In this document: positions 2,945-23,500 of the stretch, piece by piece | Layout: every line of letters starts with the position of its first letter | How positions within the stretch are numbered: the stretch's first letter is position 1 | Source of the DNA: a virus | Strand: one strand, 5' to 3' | IMG/VR virus record: IMGVR_UViG_3300017757_000028 | Span: 1 to 42,335 of that record | Length of the DNA stretch: 42,335 nucleotides | Made by a program: the position numbers and the translations under genes | Notes under the pieces: generated by a model | The model's input: only the letters and a program-made list of their open reading frames with translations | The model's database searches: none | Told to the model about the DNA's origin: nothing

Positions 2945-3176
2945 ATTAAAATAAGGTTTTTAATATGATTATAAATATAAAACTGTTTTTTATCTTCTGA
3001 GATACTCTGTGGTTGCTGTGGAGTGTCTTGGGAGTGTCTCTGTAGTAGTTTTATGGTCTTTTATGTGTTATAATGTCTTATAAAGGTCTCAGGGTCTTGT
3101 GGGTTTAGCGAGCGTATCATAAGACGGGCGACTTGTCAACCCACCGGGCGGAAAAAATTCACAGAAGGACACAATA
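2945..3176 (+). other. Gene-free, G/T-biased segment left of the operator array
   Basis: No credible CDS on either strand. Bases 2990-3110 are rich in G and T on the + strand and poor in C, with repeated GTGTCT-like words (GGAGTGTCTTGGGAGTGTCTC). TGTGTTATAAT near 3064-3074 resembles an extended -10 box without a good -35. The segment ends with a GC-rich stretch (about 3119-3152, CGGGCGACTTGTCAACCCAC). It might hold a small RNA, an untranslated leader or a replication/packaging signal. I see no tRNA fold. Confidence 0.5.
2970..2977 (+). promoter_or_regulatory. Late-type promoter motif TATAAATA without an adjacent gene
   Basis: TATAAATA matches the late motif found before gp25 and gp8 in this window. 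The next credible start codon is at 3317, nearly 350 bases downstream, so if active it would make a long leader or a non-coding RNA. AT-rich context makes a chance match possible. Confidence 0.35.
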
Positions 3177-3200
3177 ATCTCGACGAGTTATGTTATGATA

Positions 3201-3229
3201 ATGACACAATCTCGACTAGATCTTATACA
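3201..3229 (+). promoter_or_regulatory. Possible secondary sigma70 promoter in the array
   Basis: ATGACA (3201-3206), 17-base spacer, TATACA (3224-3229). Copy 2 of the array (3209-3219) sits in the spacer, as copy 4 does in the stronger promoter downstream. The 11-mer ATCTTATACAT holding this -10 recurs at 3400-3410 inside the CDS. Confidence 0.45.
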
Positions 3230-3264
3230 TAGATACATGAATCTCGACTAGACACAACATATAG

Positions 3265-3293
3265 TTGACATCTCGTCGATATATCAGTATAAT
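3265..3293 (+). promoter_or_regulatory. Consensus sigma70 promoter with operator in its spacer
   Basis: TTGACA (3265-3270), 17 bases, TATAAT (3288-3293): an exact match to the bacterial sigma70 consensus, with the ATG of the acidic protein at 3317. The array site ATCTCGTCGAT (3270-3280) fills the spacer next to the -35 box, so a protein bound there would block RNA polymerase. Copy 5 (3302-3312) covers the leader just after the expected start point. Confidence 0.85.
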
Positions 3294-3316
3294 ACACAAA
3301 GATCTCGACGAGAATT

Positions 3317-3499
3317 ATGTACGACGACTACGATCTCGACTATACCCATGCACCCGCATATGAATATGATCTCGACGAGAGTTATGAGATGTTAGTACAA
3401 TCTTATACATCACATCTAGATGATAACCTAGACCTAGATGAAGAGTACACACGCGATACGCAGGATTATGATGCGCTTGCGTATAAGCATTACGCATGA
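3317..3499 (+). CDS. Very acidic, tyrosine-rich small protein (60 aa)
   Basis: ATG at 3317, 23 bases after a consensus -10 box; TGA at 3497-3499. The product has 13 Asp, 5 Glu and 11 Tyr against one Arg and one Lys in 60 residues, a net charge near -16. The tripeptide DLD recurs (residues 6-8, 18-20, 39-41); the first two are encoded by array copies 6 and 7, so the DNA motif is also coding sequence. The C-terminus QDYDALAYKHYA looks like that of related small cyanophage proteins. Such charge resembles DNA-mimic inhibitors, but that is inference. An opposite-strand frame here is a shadow. The gene is probably controlled by the array. Confidence 0.7.
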   Translation: MYDDYDLDYTHAPAYEYDLDESYEMLVQSYTSHLDDNLDLDEEYTRDTQDYDALAYKHYA

Positions 3500-3505
3500 T
3501 ATAAT
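3477..3505 (+). promoter_or_regulatory. sigma70-like promoter for the gene at 3532
   Basis: TTGCGT (3477-3482), 17-base spacer, TATAAT (3500-3505). The -35 box lies inside the end of the upstream acidic-protein gene. The leader before the ATG at 3532 is A/C-rich (ACACTCACACCACACACGCC) with no Shine-Dalgarno. Confidence 0.65.
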
Positions 3506-3531: not shown

Positions 3532-3684
3532 ATGTATGCCACTAAGCGAACTGTCCGCGTGACACTTGACATAGAGTGTTATGATGACTTAGACTTACAA
3601 TCCTATGATTGGAATGAAGTCTTAGGTCTGGAAGGTGATGAACGAGTACAAGTTAGCACAGAAGAATGCCTTGACTGCTGGTAG
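3532..3684 (+). CDS. Small conserved cyanophage protein (50 aa)
   Basis: ATG at 3532 follows its own promoter and an A/C-rich leader; TAG at 3682-3684 is followed 14 bases later by a rho-independent terminator, so this is a complete one-gene transcription unit. The protein starts MYATKRTVRVTLDIECYDD, probably a beta strand, and continues with acidic text (LQSYDWNEVLGLEGDERVQV) to a C-terminal CLDCW with a CxxC pair. The start and the W(N/K)xxLxLEGDE pattern look familiar from other marine cyanophages. Function unknown. Confidence 0.7.
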   Translation: MYATKRTVRVTLDIECYDDLDLQSYDWNEVLGLEGDERVQVSTEECLDCW

Positions 3685-3698
3685 TGTGCCAGTTTGAA

Positions 3699-3731
3699 AA
3701 CCGTCCACCGCTCTTATGGGGCGGTTTTTTT
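3699..3731 (+). terminator. Rho-independent terminator
   Basis: AACCGTCC (3699-3706) pairs with GGGCGGTT (3719-3726) with one G-U pair, followed by a run of seven T (3725-3731). This is the clearest intrinsic terminator in the window and closes the unit 3532-3684. Confidence 0.85.
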
Positions 3732-4743: not shown

Positions 4744-5226
4744 ATGCTCACTGGAATCGCTCTCAAGAACACTGTCGCCGCAATGCAAGCGGAAGGCAAG
4801 AAACCTACAGAGATCGCCATCGCTTGTGGTTATTGTACCGTCGAAGGTTCGAACACTAAAGTTCACTTTACCGATTTTTACATGGCATTGTTGGAGGTAA
4901 AGGGTGAATTAGTTGATGACATCGAAGAAGAAACGATTGAGGCAGAGAATAGTGATAATCAAGAAGCAATCAATGAGGCATTAGAGGATTATCCTGCTGA
5001 TGGAATCCGTGCCTTTATTGAATACTTTGGAGAGGATTGTATCTCTGACATTTGTGACTCTTATCAGGGCGAAATGTCAGGCGCTGAGTTTGCAGAACAA
5101 TTGGTTTCTGATTGTTACTCACTCGACATTCCTTCCTTTGTTTCTGTTGATTGGGAAGATACATGGGATAATCTACGCCACGACTACATTGAGCAGGACG
5201 GATATATTTTCTGCACCAACTTCTGA
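4744..5226 (+). CDS. AbrB-like / ArdA-like fusion, predicted antirestriction protein (160 aa)
   Basis: Residues 1-55 (MLTGIALKNTVAAMQAEG at the start, then IAIACGYCTV and FTDFYMALLEVKGE) match the pattern LTGxALxxKV..., CGY, FxxALLxAKG of cyanobacterial AbrB-like regulators. Residues 56-81 are an acidic linker. Residues 83-160 match the C-terminal part of ArdA: EYFGEDCISDICDSYQGEM, then SGAEFAEQL, then a tail ending HDYIEQDGYIFC. ArdA proteins mimic DNA and inhibit type I restriction enzymes, so the product probably protects phage DNA in the host cell. The AbrB-like part may bind DNA or give dimers. Own promoter upstream, terminator hairpin downstream. The fusion is unusual; the ArdA part is shorter than full-length ArdA. 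Confidence 0.75.
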   Translation: MLTGIALKNTVAAMQAEGKKPTEIAIACGYCTVEGSNTKVHFTDFYMALLEVKGELVDDIEEETIEAENSDNQEAINEALEDYPADGIRAFIEYFGEDCISDICDSYQGEMSGAEFAEQLVSDCYSLDIPSFVSVDWEDTWDNLRHDYIEQDGYIFCTNF

Positions 5227-6443: not shown

Positions 6444-6743
6444 ATGTTCACCTCAATCACAAGTCGTCAGTCCTTCGGTGCTACGTATCAGTGGGCGATC
6501 CTGTCAGTTCTTCCTATGGATGACGGCGACGATGGTATGGCACAGGACGGAATGCGTCCCACGGACATCAACGCTGCTCTGGGTCTTCCTAATGAAGCAC
6601 GCACGGGTCTATCAATGCTGCTTAAGGTGATGGCAGAGCAGGGTCTGATTAAGCGTCATGAACTAGGAGCACGGTGGGTAGAATACACCCGCCTGATGCC
6701 CCTACGCAACAGAGAGCGCATCGCCCGTTGGTTGTGGCAGTGA
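6444..6743 (+). CDS. Predicted winged-helix DNA-binding protein (99 aa)
   Basis: ATG at 6444 after an A/C-rich leader. Residues 11-24 form a first helix (FGATYQWAILSVLP). Residues 39-70 read as a helix-turn-helix: RPTDINAALGLPNEARTGLS, then MLLKVMAEQGLIKR. Residues 71-84 (HELGARWVEYTRL) fit a wing. 'TDINxALGL......LxxLxxxGLIKR' is the usual pattern of winged-helix regulators of the MarR/PadR type, although the exact family is not clear. The size suits a stand-alone transcription factor. It could bind one of the repeat families of this window (3177-3379 or the N10 inverted repeats), which is only a hypothesis. Confidence 0.6.
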   Translation: MFTSITSRQSFGATYQWAILSVLPMDDGDDGMAQDGMRPTDINAALGLPNEARTGLSMLLKVMAEQGLIKRHELGARWVEYTRLMPLRNRERIARWLWQ

Positions 6744-6928: not shown

Positions 6929-7123
6929 ATGGAAACAGAAATACCTCTTATGCAAAAAAATCCGGGTGAAAATTTTTCGACCGTAGGGGTCGATCCTGTA
7001 ACAGGTGAATATGTCATTCAAGTACCAGAGTGGATTATCTCTGAATTTGGATGGTATGAAGGTACACAGTTAAATATGGAGGTTGATAAAGATGCTATCG
7101 TGATTACCGAACTCAAAGATTGA
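6929..7123 (+). CDS. SpoVT/AbrB-fold small protein (64 aa)
   Basis: ATG at 6929, AT-rich leader. Residues 27-62 (EYVIQVPEWIISEFGWYEGT, then QLNMEV and AIVITEL) match the swapped-hairpin AbrB/MazE pattern: a strand ending in I-x-V/I-P, a helix ending in G-W, E-G-T/D-x-L, and a C-terminal strand V-I-T-E. Residues 11-26 hold NPGENFSTVGVDPVTG. A stand-alone AbrB-fold protein usually binds DNA as a dimer, or is an antitoxin; no toxin gene is next to it. The stop codon is inside the -35 region of the following promoter. Confidence 0.7.
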   Translation: METEIPLMQKNPGENFSTVGVDPVTGEYVIQVPEWIISEFGWYEGTQLNMEVDKDAIVITELKD

Positions 7124-14500: not shown

Positions 14501-17500
14501 CTGGATACTCTAACAGAAAACTTAGGGTAAAAGCATCTGGTATCTCGACTTCTTATGATACAGTTAGCTTTAAAAATCATGGATTTGAAACGGGTGAGAT
14601 TGTAAACTATGAAACTACTGGTACAGTAATTGCAGGTTTATCTACAGCAAATCAATATTCTATTGTAAAAGTATCTGATGATACTTTTAGTCTTATCAAT
14701 GTTGGTATCGGCAGATCAATTACAACAGATCTGACAAAATTTAAAATAACAAAATTAAATTCCCAAGGAACTGGATATCAAATATTCAAAGATCCAGAAA
14801 TTAAAGTTGAAGCATCTTATGTTGGATCAGGCACCTTTACGTTTACTCCTATTGTAACTGGACCAATACATGATGCCTATTTGTATGAAAGTGGTGCAGG
14901 GTATGGATCAACTATATTTAATGTTCATAGAAAACCTATTATTTCTCTCTCTAGGGGCAAAAATGCTCAGGTAAATCCAATTATTGTTAATGGTAGAATT
15001 GAAGATATCCAAATACTTAATAAAGGAAGTGGATATACTTCTGTACCAAATATCAGTATTGATGATCCATCAGGTGGAGTTGGAGCATTATTACGCCCTG
15101 TAGTGGAAAATGGTAGAATTGAAGATATCGTCATACTCAATCCGGGTATTGGATATACTCCAAATTCAACATCTATTTTTGTAGATCCAAGAGGTTTTGG
15201 TGCAATATTTGACACTAGAGTTAGAGGTCTTACAATTGACGATGCATTTAGATTTGGCAAAATTTCACTAGACAATCCCAACAATCAAATTTTTGCAAAT
15301 TTGAGCAATAATAATGAAAATGAGTATCTTAATTATGGAATTTATGGATATTCTGAAGATCTTGCAGATAGTTTAGAATCTTTAAATGGCAGCCACTCAC
15401 CAATTATTGGTTGGGCATATGATGGAAATCCAATCTACGGACCTTTTGCATATACTGATGGAGACACTGCAGGATCTGCCATTAAGAGGGTTCAATCTGG
15501 TTATGAGATTGACACTAATAGTGTTGTAGATAGACCACAATTTGAAGCAGGTTTCTTTATTGAAGATTATGTTTATAATGGTTCTGGGGATCTTGATGAA
15601 CATAATGGAAGATTTTGCAAAACTCCAGAATTTCCAAATGGAACTTATGCATACTTTGCTAGTGTAAAAAATGTTCAATCAACTAATGATTTTATTCCAG
15701 AATATCCATATTTTGTGGGAAATACATTTAAATCAAACTTTATTAATGAAAATAAAATTTTAGATCAGACATTTGATTTTAACTCAAGTGGATTGGTCAG
15801 AAATACTTTCCCATATAATGTAAATGAACCATCAATAGAATATGATTTCTTTAATGAATCTTATGAAACTCTCGAACAACCTGGTGTTGTTGAGGCAGTA
15901 ACTAGTGGATCTGTTTCTGATATTAAAGTTATTTCTGGAGGAATCGGATATAAGATTGGCGATCGTGTAAACTTTGATTCTGATGGACTTGATGTTTCTG
16001 AAGTAAGAGGAGAAGTATCAGAATTGACAGGAGTAGATATTACTTCTTTGAACACTACATTGGAAAATTATCCAAATTCAGTTTTTGTCTGGGATAATCA
16101 AGAACAAGTATCCGCATACTATCGTAACGGTGGATATGATATACTTAATGAAAATACTGTTCTTGTTAGTGGACTTTCAACATCCATTGCAAGATTAGAG
16201 GGATCTAAGAAAGTAAAAATTAATTCAGAATCTATATCTCTTGCATCTACTATGACCTCATACAATGCAGGTCAAGGTCCATTAACTGAAACAATTTACA
16301 TTTCTAAAAAATTTAAAAATGTATCTATAGGAAACTCAATTAGTATTGTATCTTCGGATGGTGAAGAAATTGTAAGGGTTCTTAATGACTATGGTAATGG
16401 TATTTTAAAAATTAAGAGATTTAGTACAGGTCCTGGAGCGGCACACTCTATGGGTAGTACTTTAAATCTTCCTGGTGATAGAATTACTTTACCTGTATTT
16501 ACAGATAAGTTTAAATCTGAAAGGAATGATATTGTATATTTCAATGCATTAAAACAAGTTGCAATTGGAACCGCTCAAGGTGCTTCTATATCTCTTGATG
16601 CAATTGAACGTCCAGACGGAACTTTTATATCTGCAGATGTTCCAACTCGTACAATCTATCTTCCAAATCATCCATTTAAAGGTGGGCAAAAAGTTCGTTT
16701 TCATGCTCCATCTTTTGCAACTCCAATAACTGTATCGGCAGAAGCAGGATCTACAAACTTCTTTTTACCAGATCCAACAGCAGGAGAATCTGAAGTTTAT
16801 ATTATTAACAAAGGACCAGATCACATTGGTCTTGCAACTCAACTTTCAGATATTACAGCATCTGATGGAGTATTTTTCAAACTTGCTGGTAGTGATCATC
16901 ACGAATTTTTACTTGAATCTCAGAAAAAGCAAGTTATCGGAAATGTTTCTAGAATTGTAACCCGTGTTGGCACTTCTGCTACGCATGGATTGCAAAACGG
17001 TGATAGTATTAAACTTACAGTTAATCCAAATACTGTAGTTGGATTAGGAACTACTGCTGCACTTAATATTAAAATTAATCATCATGATCATAAAATTATT
17101 GTAAATCCTTTAGGTATTGCTACTGCAGGAATTAATACAATTACCAATACATTATCATATGCCAACCATGGATTTAAAAATGGAGATAAAGTATTTCTTG
17201 AGGCAAATAATGTTGCTCCAGGTCTTGCAGTAAGCTCTTATTACACTATTAAAGTCTCTGATAATGAATTTAAGTTAGCAGAAACTTTATATGATACAAA
17301 TCCAAATACTAGGAATGAAGTTAACATCATTGATACTGGTGTTGGTACTCATACTGTTGGATTAATAAATCCACAAATTAATGTAATTAAAAATGGAGAT
17401 CTCAAATTCATTCTGAATGATGAATCTCTTAGGGGATATGAATTAAAAATCTATAGAGATAGAGAATTTATTAATGAATATGTAACTTCTAGTGACAGTA

Positions 17501-20500: not shown

Positions 20501-23500
20501 ATCTCAGTGCCTTTGATGGTATCAATGGGTTGAGAGCAAATAGGGTCAATTTCCCACTCACTTATCAAGGTAATCCAATTTACAATAAGTCATTTGATCC
20601 ATCAGATACTACAAAAATTGATTACGTAACTGGAATATTTACATACCCAAATCACTTCTTTAATACTGGTGAAGAACTTAATTATATTCCAAGATCAACT
20701 TTTACTGGTATTGGACAGACTGGAATGGGTATTGGTGCAACAGCAAACTATGCAGGTATTGTTACGACAGTGCTTCCAGAAAAAGTTTATGCTATTGCAA
20801 TTACTCCAGATACATTCCAACTTTCATCTAAGAAAGAATATACAAGTTTGGGAATTGCTGTAACCTTTACTAGTGCGGGATCAGGTAATGCACATGAACT
20901 AGAATTTACTAAAAAACTTTCCAAGACAGTTATTGGTATTGATGGAATTGTACAACAACCTATCACATTTTCACCAATTAATTATACTCTTGAAAATAAT
21001 GATCATTATTTCTCTGGAGGTATTCCTGTAGGAATTAATACATTCAATATAAGTGGAATTTCATCACTTCAACCAAGAGATATTCTTCGTATTGATGATG
21101 AATATATGAAGATTGAAACTGTTGGTTTCTCAAGTAACATCAATGGGGAAATTGTTGGTCCCATTACTGGTGTAATTCAATCTGGTATCGGTGCAACTTT
21201 TAATACAGTTTCTGTCGTAAGAGGTTTTGTTGGTAGTGCTGCTACAAGTCATCTTAATCAGGCAAATGTTCAACTCTATAAAGGTTCATTCAATATTGTT
21301 AAAAATGATATTTTCTTTACAGATCCTCCAAAAGGAAATACTCGTGCAAGAAGAGATGAGCAAAATCTTCCATATGTAAAAGCAGAATTTTCTGGTAGAA
21401 CATTCTTGAGACAAAATTATGACGAAAATATGATATTTGATGACAATTCAAATGAATTTACTGGTATTGGTAGAACATATACTTTAAAAGTTGGTGGTGC
21501 AGATACTACAGGAATTTCTCCTGGAAATGGAATTCTGTTTATCAATGGAGTATTCCAAACACCATCAACAGAAAACAATACTGGTAATAATTATGATGTT
21601 ATTAGAGATATTAGTGCAGGTATTTCTAGTGTTGTTTATACTGGTATCACTTCAGTTGATGGAACTAAAATTCAATCAGAATTTGATATTAATCAAAATC
21701 AAATTCCTAGAGGTGGTTTGGTAGTATCATATGGTTCTACTCCTGGTCTTGGATATGCGCCATTATATGGTCCTTCTGTATTAGTAGATAAAAATGGAAG
21801 TGGTGAAATTACAAATATTGTTGGTGTCAATACACATAGAAATGCTGTTTCAATCTCCACAGCATCTTATGACAAGATAAGTGGTCTTCTTAGGATTGAA
21901 ACTTCAAGTGATCACAATTTAAATTATGATCACAGAGTCAAACTTGATGGTCTTGAATTTAGTTGTGATTCAGCACACGCTGGGGTTACCACAACTATAT
22001 TCCCAGATTATGATTATGCATTAGATGTTTATAATATTATTTCTGATACAGAATTGACTGTTAATGTTGGTCCTTCAACAATCACACATTTATATGAAAA
22101 TAGTGGAACAATTGCAAGATATTATGATCTTTCTATTGGTTCTGGATATAGAAGTCCCGTTTCAATTGCTGTAACAGATCTCAGTGGTGCTGGAAGTGGA
22201 GCAACTGTTGAAGCAATTGTTGGTGCTGGTGGAACACTTGCATTTAATATTACTGATCCTGGTACAGGATATATCGAACCAGTTCTTAATATTCCCGAAC
22301 CAAATTATGAAAATATGGAAGTCATTGGTGTATCAAGACTTGGTGTTGGTTCAACTACTGAAACTGGAAAAAATCTTCTATTAAATCTTACTGTTGGTGC
22401 TGCAGGAGGAGTTGGAATTGGATCTACATTATTTGATATTGAATCTTTCAAAGTTATTAGATCTGGTTATGGATTTAAATCTGGCGATGTTATGGAAGTT
22501 GTTGGTCTTGTAACCGCAAAAGGTCTTGCCCAACCGATTTCAAATTTCCAACTTGAGGTTCGTGAAACATTTACGGACACATTCTCTTCTTGGTCATTTG
22601 GTGAAATGGATTTCATCGATAACATTGGTGGATATCAAAATGGAACCAGAAAGAGATTCCCATTATTTTATAAAGGAGAACTTCTAAGTTTTGAATTAGA
22701 TCCTACAGCTCCACTTTCCCAAAATATTGATTTAGATTCCGTACTTCTTATCTTTGTTAATGGTGTATTACAAACTCCAGGATATTCATATCAATTTACT
22801 GGAGGGACTTCATTTATATTTACTGAACCACCACAATCAAAAGATAAAATTGATATTTTCTTTTATATTGGTGAAGAAAATGTTGATTCCGTTTCTATTG
22901 AAGTTACATCAACTATTAAAGTTGGTGACGATGTATTCGTAAGAAAACATCCAAATTATTCTACACTTGCACAAGAAACTAGTAGAACAATTTCTGATAT
23001 ACCTGGTGCTGATATTCTGCAAACTGAAATTTACACTGGTAATGGCATTGATGAGAATAATTTCAGACCTATTGATTGGATTAAACAAAAGAGTGATATT
23101 TTTGTTAGAGGAAATATTGTCACTAAAGCAAGGGATGTTTATGAACCTAAAATTTTCCCAACCGCAAAAATAATTGGTGATGTATTGCCAACAGATACTG
23201 AAATATTCGTAGATAATGCACAATTCTTTACATATGATAATAGAATTTTAGATGTTAATAAGACATCAGCATTTGATTTTGATGCATTCTTTACTGATAA
23301 TAAGGAATTAACATCTGCAGAATTTACAAATACTGTTTCTGCTGCAGGAACTGTTAGTTCAATTACTATTACAACTGTTGGTGCTGGTTACACAGGTTCC
23401 ACTATAGATGTTAAGTTTTCTGCACCTAAATCTATTGGAGTTGGAGTTGGCACCACTGCCACTGCCACTGCTACAATTACAAATGGTCAAGTTTCTGCAG

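Follow-up and report, generated by a model that had tools for sequence, protein, structure and literature searches.

A promoter-registered array of short dyad sites as a putative multi-site operator conserved in T4-like cyanophages

INTRODUCTION

Regulation in T4-like cyanophages has been described mainly as driven by sigma factors and host factors. In the lambda-type operator region, several dyad operators overlap a sigma70 promoter, and ribbon-helix-helix proteins (MetJ, Arc, CopG) have as operators short dyads whose half-sites lie close together and which often stand in tandem. In the cluster A mycobacteriophages L5, Bxb1 and TipsytheTRex, many copies of a short site, the ‘stoperator’, lie in promoters and in short intergenic gaps and point predominantly with transcription; those of L5 are asymmetric 13-mers found throughout the genome and predicted to be bound by a monomer (PMC9283540 and PMC6550527, available portions). 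For cyanophage promoters, the accessible part of PMC3037559 gives the Pho and NtcA box motifs CTTA-N7-CTTA and GTA-N8-TAC, and TATAAAT as the T4 late promoter, while host PhoB acts on cyanophage promoters according to the available part of PMC10976474. Here we describe an array of short dyads lying over a sigma70 promoter in a cyanophage and its relatives. A literature search, mostly of open-access papers and with the P-SSM2 transcriptome papers outside its range, showed no earlier report of this array in cyanophages among the papers listed.

RESULTS

Seven dyad sites cluster over a consensus promoter

The window, by which we mean the whole stretch of 42,335 nucleotides that was analysed, comes from a virus of marine cyanobacteria and carries seven copies of a short dyad with the consensus A-TCT(C/a)G-W-C(G/t)AGA, also written TCTCGwCkAGA with an A before it. 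The original prediction of seven copies at start-to-start steps of 32, 32, 29, 32, 31 and 36 was confirmed: six copies contain the exact word ATCTCGAC (3177, 3209, 3241, 3302, 3333 and 3369), and the copy at 3270 is ATCTCGTC, which differs by a T as centre base. The perfect dyad core TCTCGACGAGA is present in two of the seven sites (3303 and 3370), the other five cores departing from it by one or two changes (CGAGT, CTAGA twice, CGATA and CTATA).

3177 to 3188, no strand: site 1, ATCTCGACGAGT
3209 to 3220, no strand: site 2, ATCTCGACTAGA
3241 to 3252, no strand: site 3, ATCTCGACTAGA
3270 to 3281, no strand: site 4, ATCTCGTCGATA, overlapping the final -35 base and the spacer of promoter P_A
3302 to 3313, no strand: site 5, ATCTCGACGAGA, where transcription is expected to start (placed from the -10), directly 5' of the start codon
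3333 to 3344, no strand: site 6, ATCTCGACTATA, within ORF A, encoding D-L-D
3369 to 3380, no strand: site 7, ATCTCGACGAGA, within ORF A, encoding D-L-D-E

This clustering is far above chance. With one further copy outside the array, at 14542, ATCTCGAC occurs seven times in the window against 0.72 expected, and none of 100 shuffles reached seven (maximum five). The degenerate site, at one mismatch or fewer, gave eight matches in the window, seven of them inside 210 bp, against a biggest cluster of two in 300 dinucleotide shuffles of the window and of one in 2000 shuffles of the local 800 bp. No second cluster was seen in the 42 kb window with two mismatches allowed.

The elements around the array are as follows.

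2970 to 2977, plus strand: late-promoter-like TATAAATA, upstream of the array; P-SSM2 has a similar block
3104 to 3139, minus strand: conserved block TTTAGCGAGCGTATCATAAGACG / TTTAGCGAGCGTATCATAAG...TTGTCAA, left of the array
3265 to 3293, plus strand: promoter P_A, TTGACA-17-TATAAT, 12/12 consensus, aligned in relatives
3317 to 3499, plus strand: gene A, a 60-aa acidic, Tyr/Asp-rich ORF with two DLD repeats spelled by the sites
3477 to 3505, plus strand: promoter-like TTGCGT-17-TATAAT, overlapping the end of gene A and leading to gene B
3532 to 3684, plus strand: gene B, 50 aa, phrog_12516 (unknown function), E=1.6e-17
3707 to 3725, plus strand: terminator-like hairpin 3' of gene B

A promoter scan of the window gave four promoter-like sites against 3.2 in shuffles, so that only a perfect score such as that of P_A is telling. 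Two of the elements were read by eye and are absent from the scan list. The first is the block at 3104-3139, which could be a leftward promoter or another element; similar blocks occur in the array-less phages S-SM2, Bellamy and Sf-CH8. The second is the pair at 3477-3505, similar hexamers of which occur in relatives; its hexamers are spelled by the last codons of gene A (LAYKHYA), and by eye another small ORF also has a promoter-like end (loci L172 and L130). In S-SM2 and Bellamy, gene B follows promoter-like hexamers, and the stretch printed holds neither array nor gene A. Neither Pfam nor PHROGs gave a match to gene A at E up to 0.05. The AF2 model of gene B (pLDDT 82, pTM 0.51), with a single short helix assigned, was uninformative.

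The array is widely conserved in related phages

A DNA-pattern scan of IMG/VR matched at least 120 loci, many of which carry arrays of the window's site. As sampling independent of the motif, homologues of gene B were fetched by protein, giving 65 loci, many of them near-duplicates. At 61 of the 65, at least three sites (TCTCGWC or its complement) lie within up to 600 nt upstream of gene B. Of the exceptions, L160 and L173 are cut short (127 and 25 nt of upstream sequence), L149 has two full sites plus half-sites, and L181 has weak variants and no exact site. Elsewhere in these loci the sites are nearly absent, save that some ten of the loci have another array 1.2-2.5 kb farther downstream. 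The concentration of sites at one place and their retention in relatives are the reverse of what was to be seen if the word were equally frequent elsewhere or the motif unconserved.

The array is present in S-T4, S-SRM01, P-SSM2, P-SSM5 and two single-cell phages, with AG-345-L05 among the carriers. It occupies the matching place in P-SSM2 (65995-66169), P-SSM5 (21153-21327) and AG-345-F15; these three phages, like Sf-CH8 and ACG-2014j, were examined because of their AbrB-like gene (see below). We regard it as a real, widely conserved, putative operator array of cyanophages.

How many arrays does one genome carry? G013 (231 kb) and P-SSM2 each have a single cluster, S-SRM01 has three (at 85.6, 88.1 and 90.9 kb), and S-T4 (MH412654.1) has two identically spaced copies of the array, one close to each end of its linear record (2.7 kb and 174.3 kb), which suggests that the ends of the deposited sequence overlap. 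Single clusters and a pair of copies near the record ends would suit an iteron-like replication origin or a partition site. That the array holds a consensus promoter in fixed register and that other phages have further arrays between genes make such a role very unlikely.

Promoter register and codon choice preserve the sites

Among 41 distinct promoter segments (gene-B loci, the window and S-T4), the site over the -35 and spacer is present with at most one mismatch in 31, with two mismatches in two, as a half-site only in seven, and not at all in one, S-T4. In all 31 of the first class its centre lies 11-13 bp before the -10. A second site, between the -10 and the ATG, is found in 41 of 41 segments at two mismatches or fewer and in 37 of 41 at one or fewer. 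In the aligned loci the outer sites shift or vanish and both promoter sites remain. Over 14 aligned loci, noncoding sites are better conserved than the spacers between them (mean pairwise identity 0.83 against 0.63, p=9e-6), and third codon positions score 0.96 (8 columns) inside sites against 0.67 (51 columns) outside. The original reading of a multi-site operator over a sigma70 promoter thus holds, as a putative one, in that motif, copy number and place are kept and the sites are concentrated there.

The sites extend into gene A, two of the seven lying there in frame, and the repeats could be imagined as the by-product of a repetitive protein (DLDE). Five of the seven precede the start codon. 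Leucine in the [DN]LD motif of gene A is spelled CTC in 77 of 112 cases, compared with 18 of 99 for its other leucines, 3 of 50 for [DN]LD in gene B and 27 of 355 for all leucines of long window genes. By this bias, seen in gene A and not in gene B, codon choice in gene A preserves the DNA site. Given this codon choice and the arrays in noncoding gaps, we rejected the by-product explanation, to which we give next to no weight.

The relatives keep motif, copy number and locus, and in part the step of about 32 bp. In 144 distinct spacing vectors the predicted step of about 32 bp does appear, as a peak at 29-33 bp, beside peaks at 17, 24, 36 and 42 bp, and centre-to-centre steps run from 13 to over 60 bp. 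Helical phasing is therefore loose, and partly set by codons. Strict phasing was set aside: a 10-10.5 bp component was detected (vector strength 0.31 against a jitter-null mean of 0.06) and is not relied on, because the arrays are related, codons impose spacing and a few unrelated bacterial repeats are in the set.

Secondary arrays and half-site loci

Three or more sites are present in 208 distinct arrays, of which 131 adjoin a gene-A signature and 77 do not; this split uses a short peptide pattern that misses some gene-A loci (e.g. L427), and the 77 include 16 at a contig edge and some unrelated bacterial repeats or missed gene-A loci. Among 15 arrays inspected, 11 occupy a short gap that follows a stop codon, mostly directly before the next small gene, and have no promoter recognisable by eye; the other four are promoter-region arrays. 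Two arrays (L380 772-1052 and L396 5210-5596) lie upstream of a diverged gene-B-like ORF, with no gene-A signature detected.

Downstream of secondary arrays, a noncoding-looking stretch that ends in a GC-rich hairpin and a T-run recurs at L402 6290-6561, L189 5088-5580, L172 5432-6288 and L130 13000-13700. It is possibly a cyanophage small RNA; at the Rfam gathering score there was no match to this stretch and nothing in the window or the four loci.

In S-SKS1, L149, L484 and L490 the site is mostly reduced to the half-site ACGAGAT, with 6-10 isolated half-sites against one or two full sites. All 31 isolated CGAGAT half-sites of these four loci are on the sense strand. At 2490-2706 L484 has a second half-site array, again one-way, between a stop codon that it follows directly and a tRNA-Leu (taa) gene; the half-sites of L029 and L094 are one-way as well. 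Overall, isolated half-sites favour the sense strand in 60 distinct contexts against 16; of 16 clusters of them, 10 are uniform (S-SKS1 counted twice; gene direction is unknown for L015, L056 and L353) and six are mixed.

Changes at the ±2 pair of the dyad do not covary

Could the sites act in RNA? The sense transcript would then present CGAGA(U) repeats or short hairpins to an RNA-binding protein, for antitermination or translation control. The one-way half-sites, the spacers of the secondary arrays, which are C/A-rich and G-poor on the sense strand (A.34, C.31, G.13, T.23), and the site directly 5' of the start codon of gene A are all in its favour, and strand bias and G-poor spacers could also reflect an RNA function.

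A paired stem would be expected to show compensating changes. At the ±2 pair of the main arrays the four classes number 88, 32, 23 and 9; the double change that restores pairing (9, against 55 single changes) is no commoner than chance (odds ratio 1.08). In 39 secondary arrays the counts are CG 75, AG 30, CT 21 and AT 0 (p=0.0036), so that the double is absent against 51 single changes. These 39 were picked by hand from 60 of 61 entries; 21 were dropped because the strand was unclear, a gene-A or gene-B-like ORF adjoined the array or the repeats were unrelated bacterial ones. For L186, L187 and L195 the strand guessed by the script was overruled in favour of the direction of gene B at the locus. 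In the consensus, spacing and secondary-array sets the sites were themselves chosen at one or two mismatches at most, which inflates per-position conservation. A hairpin or cruciform was rejected because the changes do not covary, and the scarcity of doubles is in keeping with a protein for which one half at least must be good. In palindromic arrays, moreover, either side may hold the intact half, and the fixed promoter-spacer site lies outside the transcript of P_A itself, although RNA started farther upstream could include it. We consider a function in RNA quite unlikely.

An acidic AbrB-like gene tracks the array

Which protein might read the sites? Three window genes had been proposed as sources of the binder: a winged-helix protein at 6444, an AbrB-ArdA protein at 4744 and an AbrB-fold protein at 6929. 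The distribution of the first two does not follow the array, and both were rejected. The protein at 6444, whose sub-threshold MarR match is the only HTH-like match among the window proteins scanned (Pfam, PHROGs), has counterparts among phage records only in two of S-SRM01 and, among six array phages, only in G013 and S-SRM01. That at 4744 is found only in G013 among the six; it also occurs in AG-345-F15 and, by its ArdA part, in AG-345-L05. The C-terminal part of this protein (4744-5226) matches an anti-restriction PHROG and its N-terminus presumably resembles the cyAbrB N-terminal domain, a fusion that may be of interest for host takeover.

The third candidate fared differently.

6929 to 7123, plus strand: AbrB-like protein, acidic, 64 aa (PSSM2_102 in P-SSM2); its presence tracks the array

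In G013, 144 of 386 genes are common to S-SRM01, S-T4 and P-SSM2, and four of these are absent from five array-less genomes: the AbrB-like gene and ORFs of 662, 131 and 43 aa. The AbrB-like gene is the only one of the four to resemble a regulator (the other three were not annotated further). Among 29 window genes it alone is present in six of six array phages (including S-SKS1, with the half-site form) and in none of the five array-less ones; gene A, which belongs to the array's own cassette, is in five of six and none of five. Sampling by neighbouring glycosyltransferase, a palindromic array accompanies the AbrB-like gene at 11 of 13 loci and is found at 0 of 33 loci without it, a comparison confounded by kinship, since all loci with the gene come from one fetch and all loci without it from the other. 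The two loci that have the gene and lack a palindromic array carry half-site arrays instead. The table covers the 46 of 159 loci that reach the place of the array, from two fetches with two glycosyltransferase queries; one gene-B query was typed as we read it from S-SM2 DNA and may contain errors. A search of phages for the AbrB-like protein gave 18 records. The array was checked in S-SKS1, P-SSM2, P-SSM5, AG-345-F15, S-T4, S-SRM01, Sf-CH8 and ACG-2014j, leaving out Sf-CH5 and ACG-2014e. Seven cultured phages with no AbrB match (DSL-LC03, S-CAM9, S-B43, S-SM2, S-SCSM1, Bellamy and MED4-213) have no array. Outside the cassette of the array, the AbrB-like gene is by its distribution the best-linked phage gene.

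The protein probably has an AbrB/MazE fold. Its model shows strand-strand-helix-strand-strand (pLDDT 70), and the top Foldseek matches are VapB, MazE and AbrB, all weak (best E 0.79). PF04014 matches 17 of 29 family members at E up to 0.1 (best 4.9e-5); the window member scores 14.3 bits, under the 24.7 cut-off, and the family profile found no PDB sequence at E up to 1. DNA-binding proteins of the AbrB/MazE swapped-hairpin type have basic DNA-contact residues, and this expected feature is missing here: complete copies (those with no extra N-terminal ORF sequence) have a net charge of -6 to -13, and one Lys is the sole invariant basic residue of the family.

The idea that the AbrB-fold protein itself reads the sites and represses P_A finds support in its distribution and its weak fold resemblances; its acidity counts against the idea. 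Moreover, Sf-CH8 has the gene together with gene A- and B-like ORFs, ACG-2014j has a weak match, and neither has the array. Nor does the sequence of the protein follow the form of the site: very similar proteins accompany half-site (S-SKS1) and mixed (L352) arrays, and the half-site locus L484 has a different subtype. What remains of the proposed binder at 6929 is its co-occurrence with the array; as the reader itself we consider it unlikely. A role as partner or antirepressor is as likely as that of reader, given the strong acidity and the presence of the gene in Sf-CH8 without the array.

No protein with basic DNA contacts was found to track the array, which leaves room for a host transcription factor, so that the phage would sense the state of its host through the array. 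Host PhoB provides a precedent on cyanophage promoters (PMC10976474, available part), and a host CopG-type repressor would suit the short dyad. Genomes from 84,980 species of bacteria and archaea were scanned for the triple-site pattern, which turned up in only six contigs. Five (L329, L331, L332, L333 and L334) are unrelated tandem repeats; the sixth, L330, does carry the array. It is titled as a Rhodobacteraceae MAG, probably through misbinning, and can be aligned to cyanophage array contigs of IMG/VR, among them L067 (87% over 1.3 kb). As the scan addressed the triple-site pattern, a host reader that acts on single sites in its own genome would still be compatible with it. Other observations weigh against one: S-SCSM1 shares its host strain, WH 7803, with S-T4 and yet is without the array, and the array goes with a phage gene, the AbrB-like one. 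A host reader is a credible idea, and an unlikely one.

DISCUSSION

We propose that the array is a DNA-level operator, a ‘stoperator’-like silencing cluster for a putative sequence-specific DNA-binding protein, and we give this reading a probability of roughly 0.6. What the candidate protein would recognise is the half-site (A)CGAGA(T), in most cases paired into a dyad. With one unit bound over the -35 and spacer of P_A and a second over its start region, initiation should be blocked. The other sites, some of them upstream and some inside gene A, would increase occupancy nearby and stand as roadblocks to elongation, rather as the stoperators of mycobacteriophages do; in relatives, the same would hold for sites in the gaps without a promoter that separate neighbouring small genes. 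Protein binding, repression and roadblocking are what we infer around the observed sites, their conservation, promoter register and codon-level preservation, and the observed link to the AbrB-like gene. Two observations sit uneasily with the model, namely S-T4, which has no site in the promoter spacer, and the irregular spacing; in addition, a simple operator does not explain the secondary arrays, where no promoter is seen by eye.

What are the implications of such an array? Its conservation in register with a promoter, in many cyanophages and among them the model phage P-SSM2, implies an unnamed sequence-specific regulator, for which the array could serve as bait. Arrays of this kind also suggest a route from operator repeats to coding sequence. 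We tentatively sketch a fuller picture, which is more probably wrong than right as a whole: in lytic T4-like cyanophages, clustered stoperators, a new regulator and an acidic AbrB-fold antirepressor would together restrain a small-gene region, in at least two lineages the palindrome would have given way to half-sites of one orientation, and operator repeats would be the origin of gene A.

How does the array compare with known systems? A CRISPR array, with near-identical repeats of more than 20 nt and regular unique spacers, is a poor match for degenerate sites of 11-13 bp at irregular steps. Ribbon-helix-helix operators share the short dyad, and no such protein was identified here. Pho and NtcA boxes are likewise short motifs at cyanophage promoters, yet by eye they differ from the array consensus, and the accessible part of PMC3037559 describes no long arrays. 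The lambda-type operator region is closer, with several dyad operators over a sigma70 promoter; unlike it, the present array has more sites, irregular spacing and sites that extend into coding sequence. Nor was a divergent repressor gene seen next to it: the genes that probably flank it (2705-2944, 3317-3499 and 3532-3684) are all on the plus strand and gave no repressor family match (PHROGs for all three, Pfam for the latter two). The stoperators of cluster A mycobacteriophages are similar in placing many copies of a short site in promoters and short intergenic gaps, a likeness found in the array family as a whole, the window itself having the promoter array only. The one-way asymmetry that predominates among stoperators is shared by every isolated copy in the half-site loci (31/31, and in L029 and L094), and not by the window or the palindromic arrays. 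Unlike the genome-wide sites of L5 (PMC9283540 and PMC6550527, available portions), those described here are packed, about 3-10 to an array, are mostly palindromic and lie within a few kb, in T4-like phages. Taken together, the sequence evidence is best read as a multi-site silencing element.
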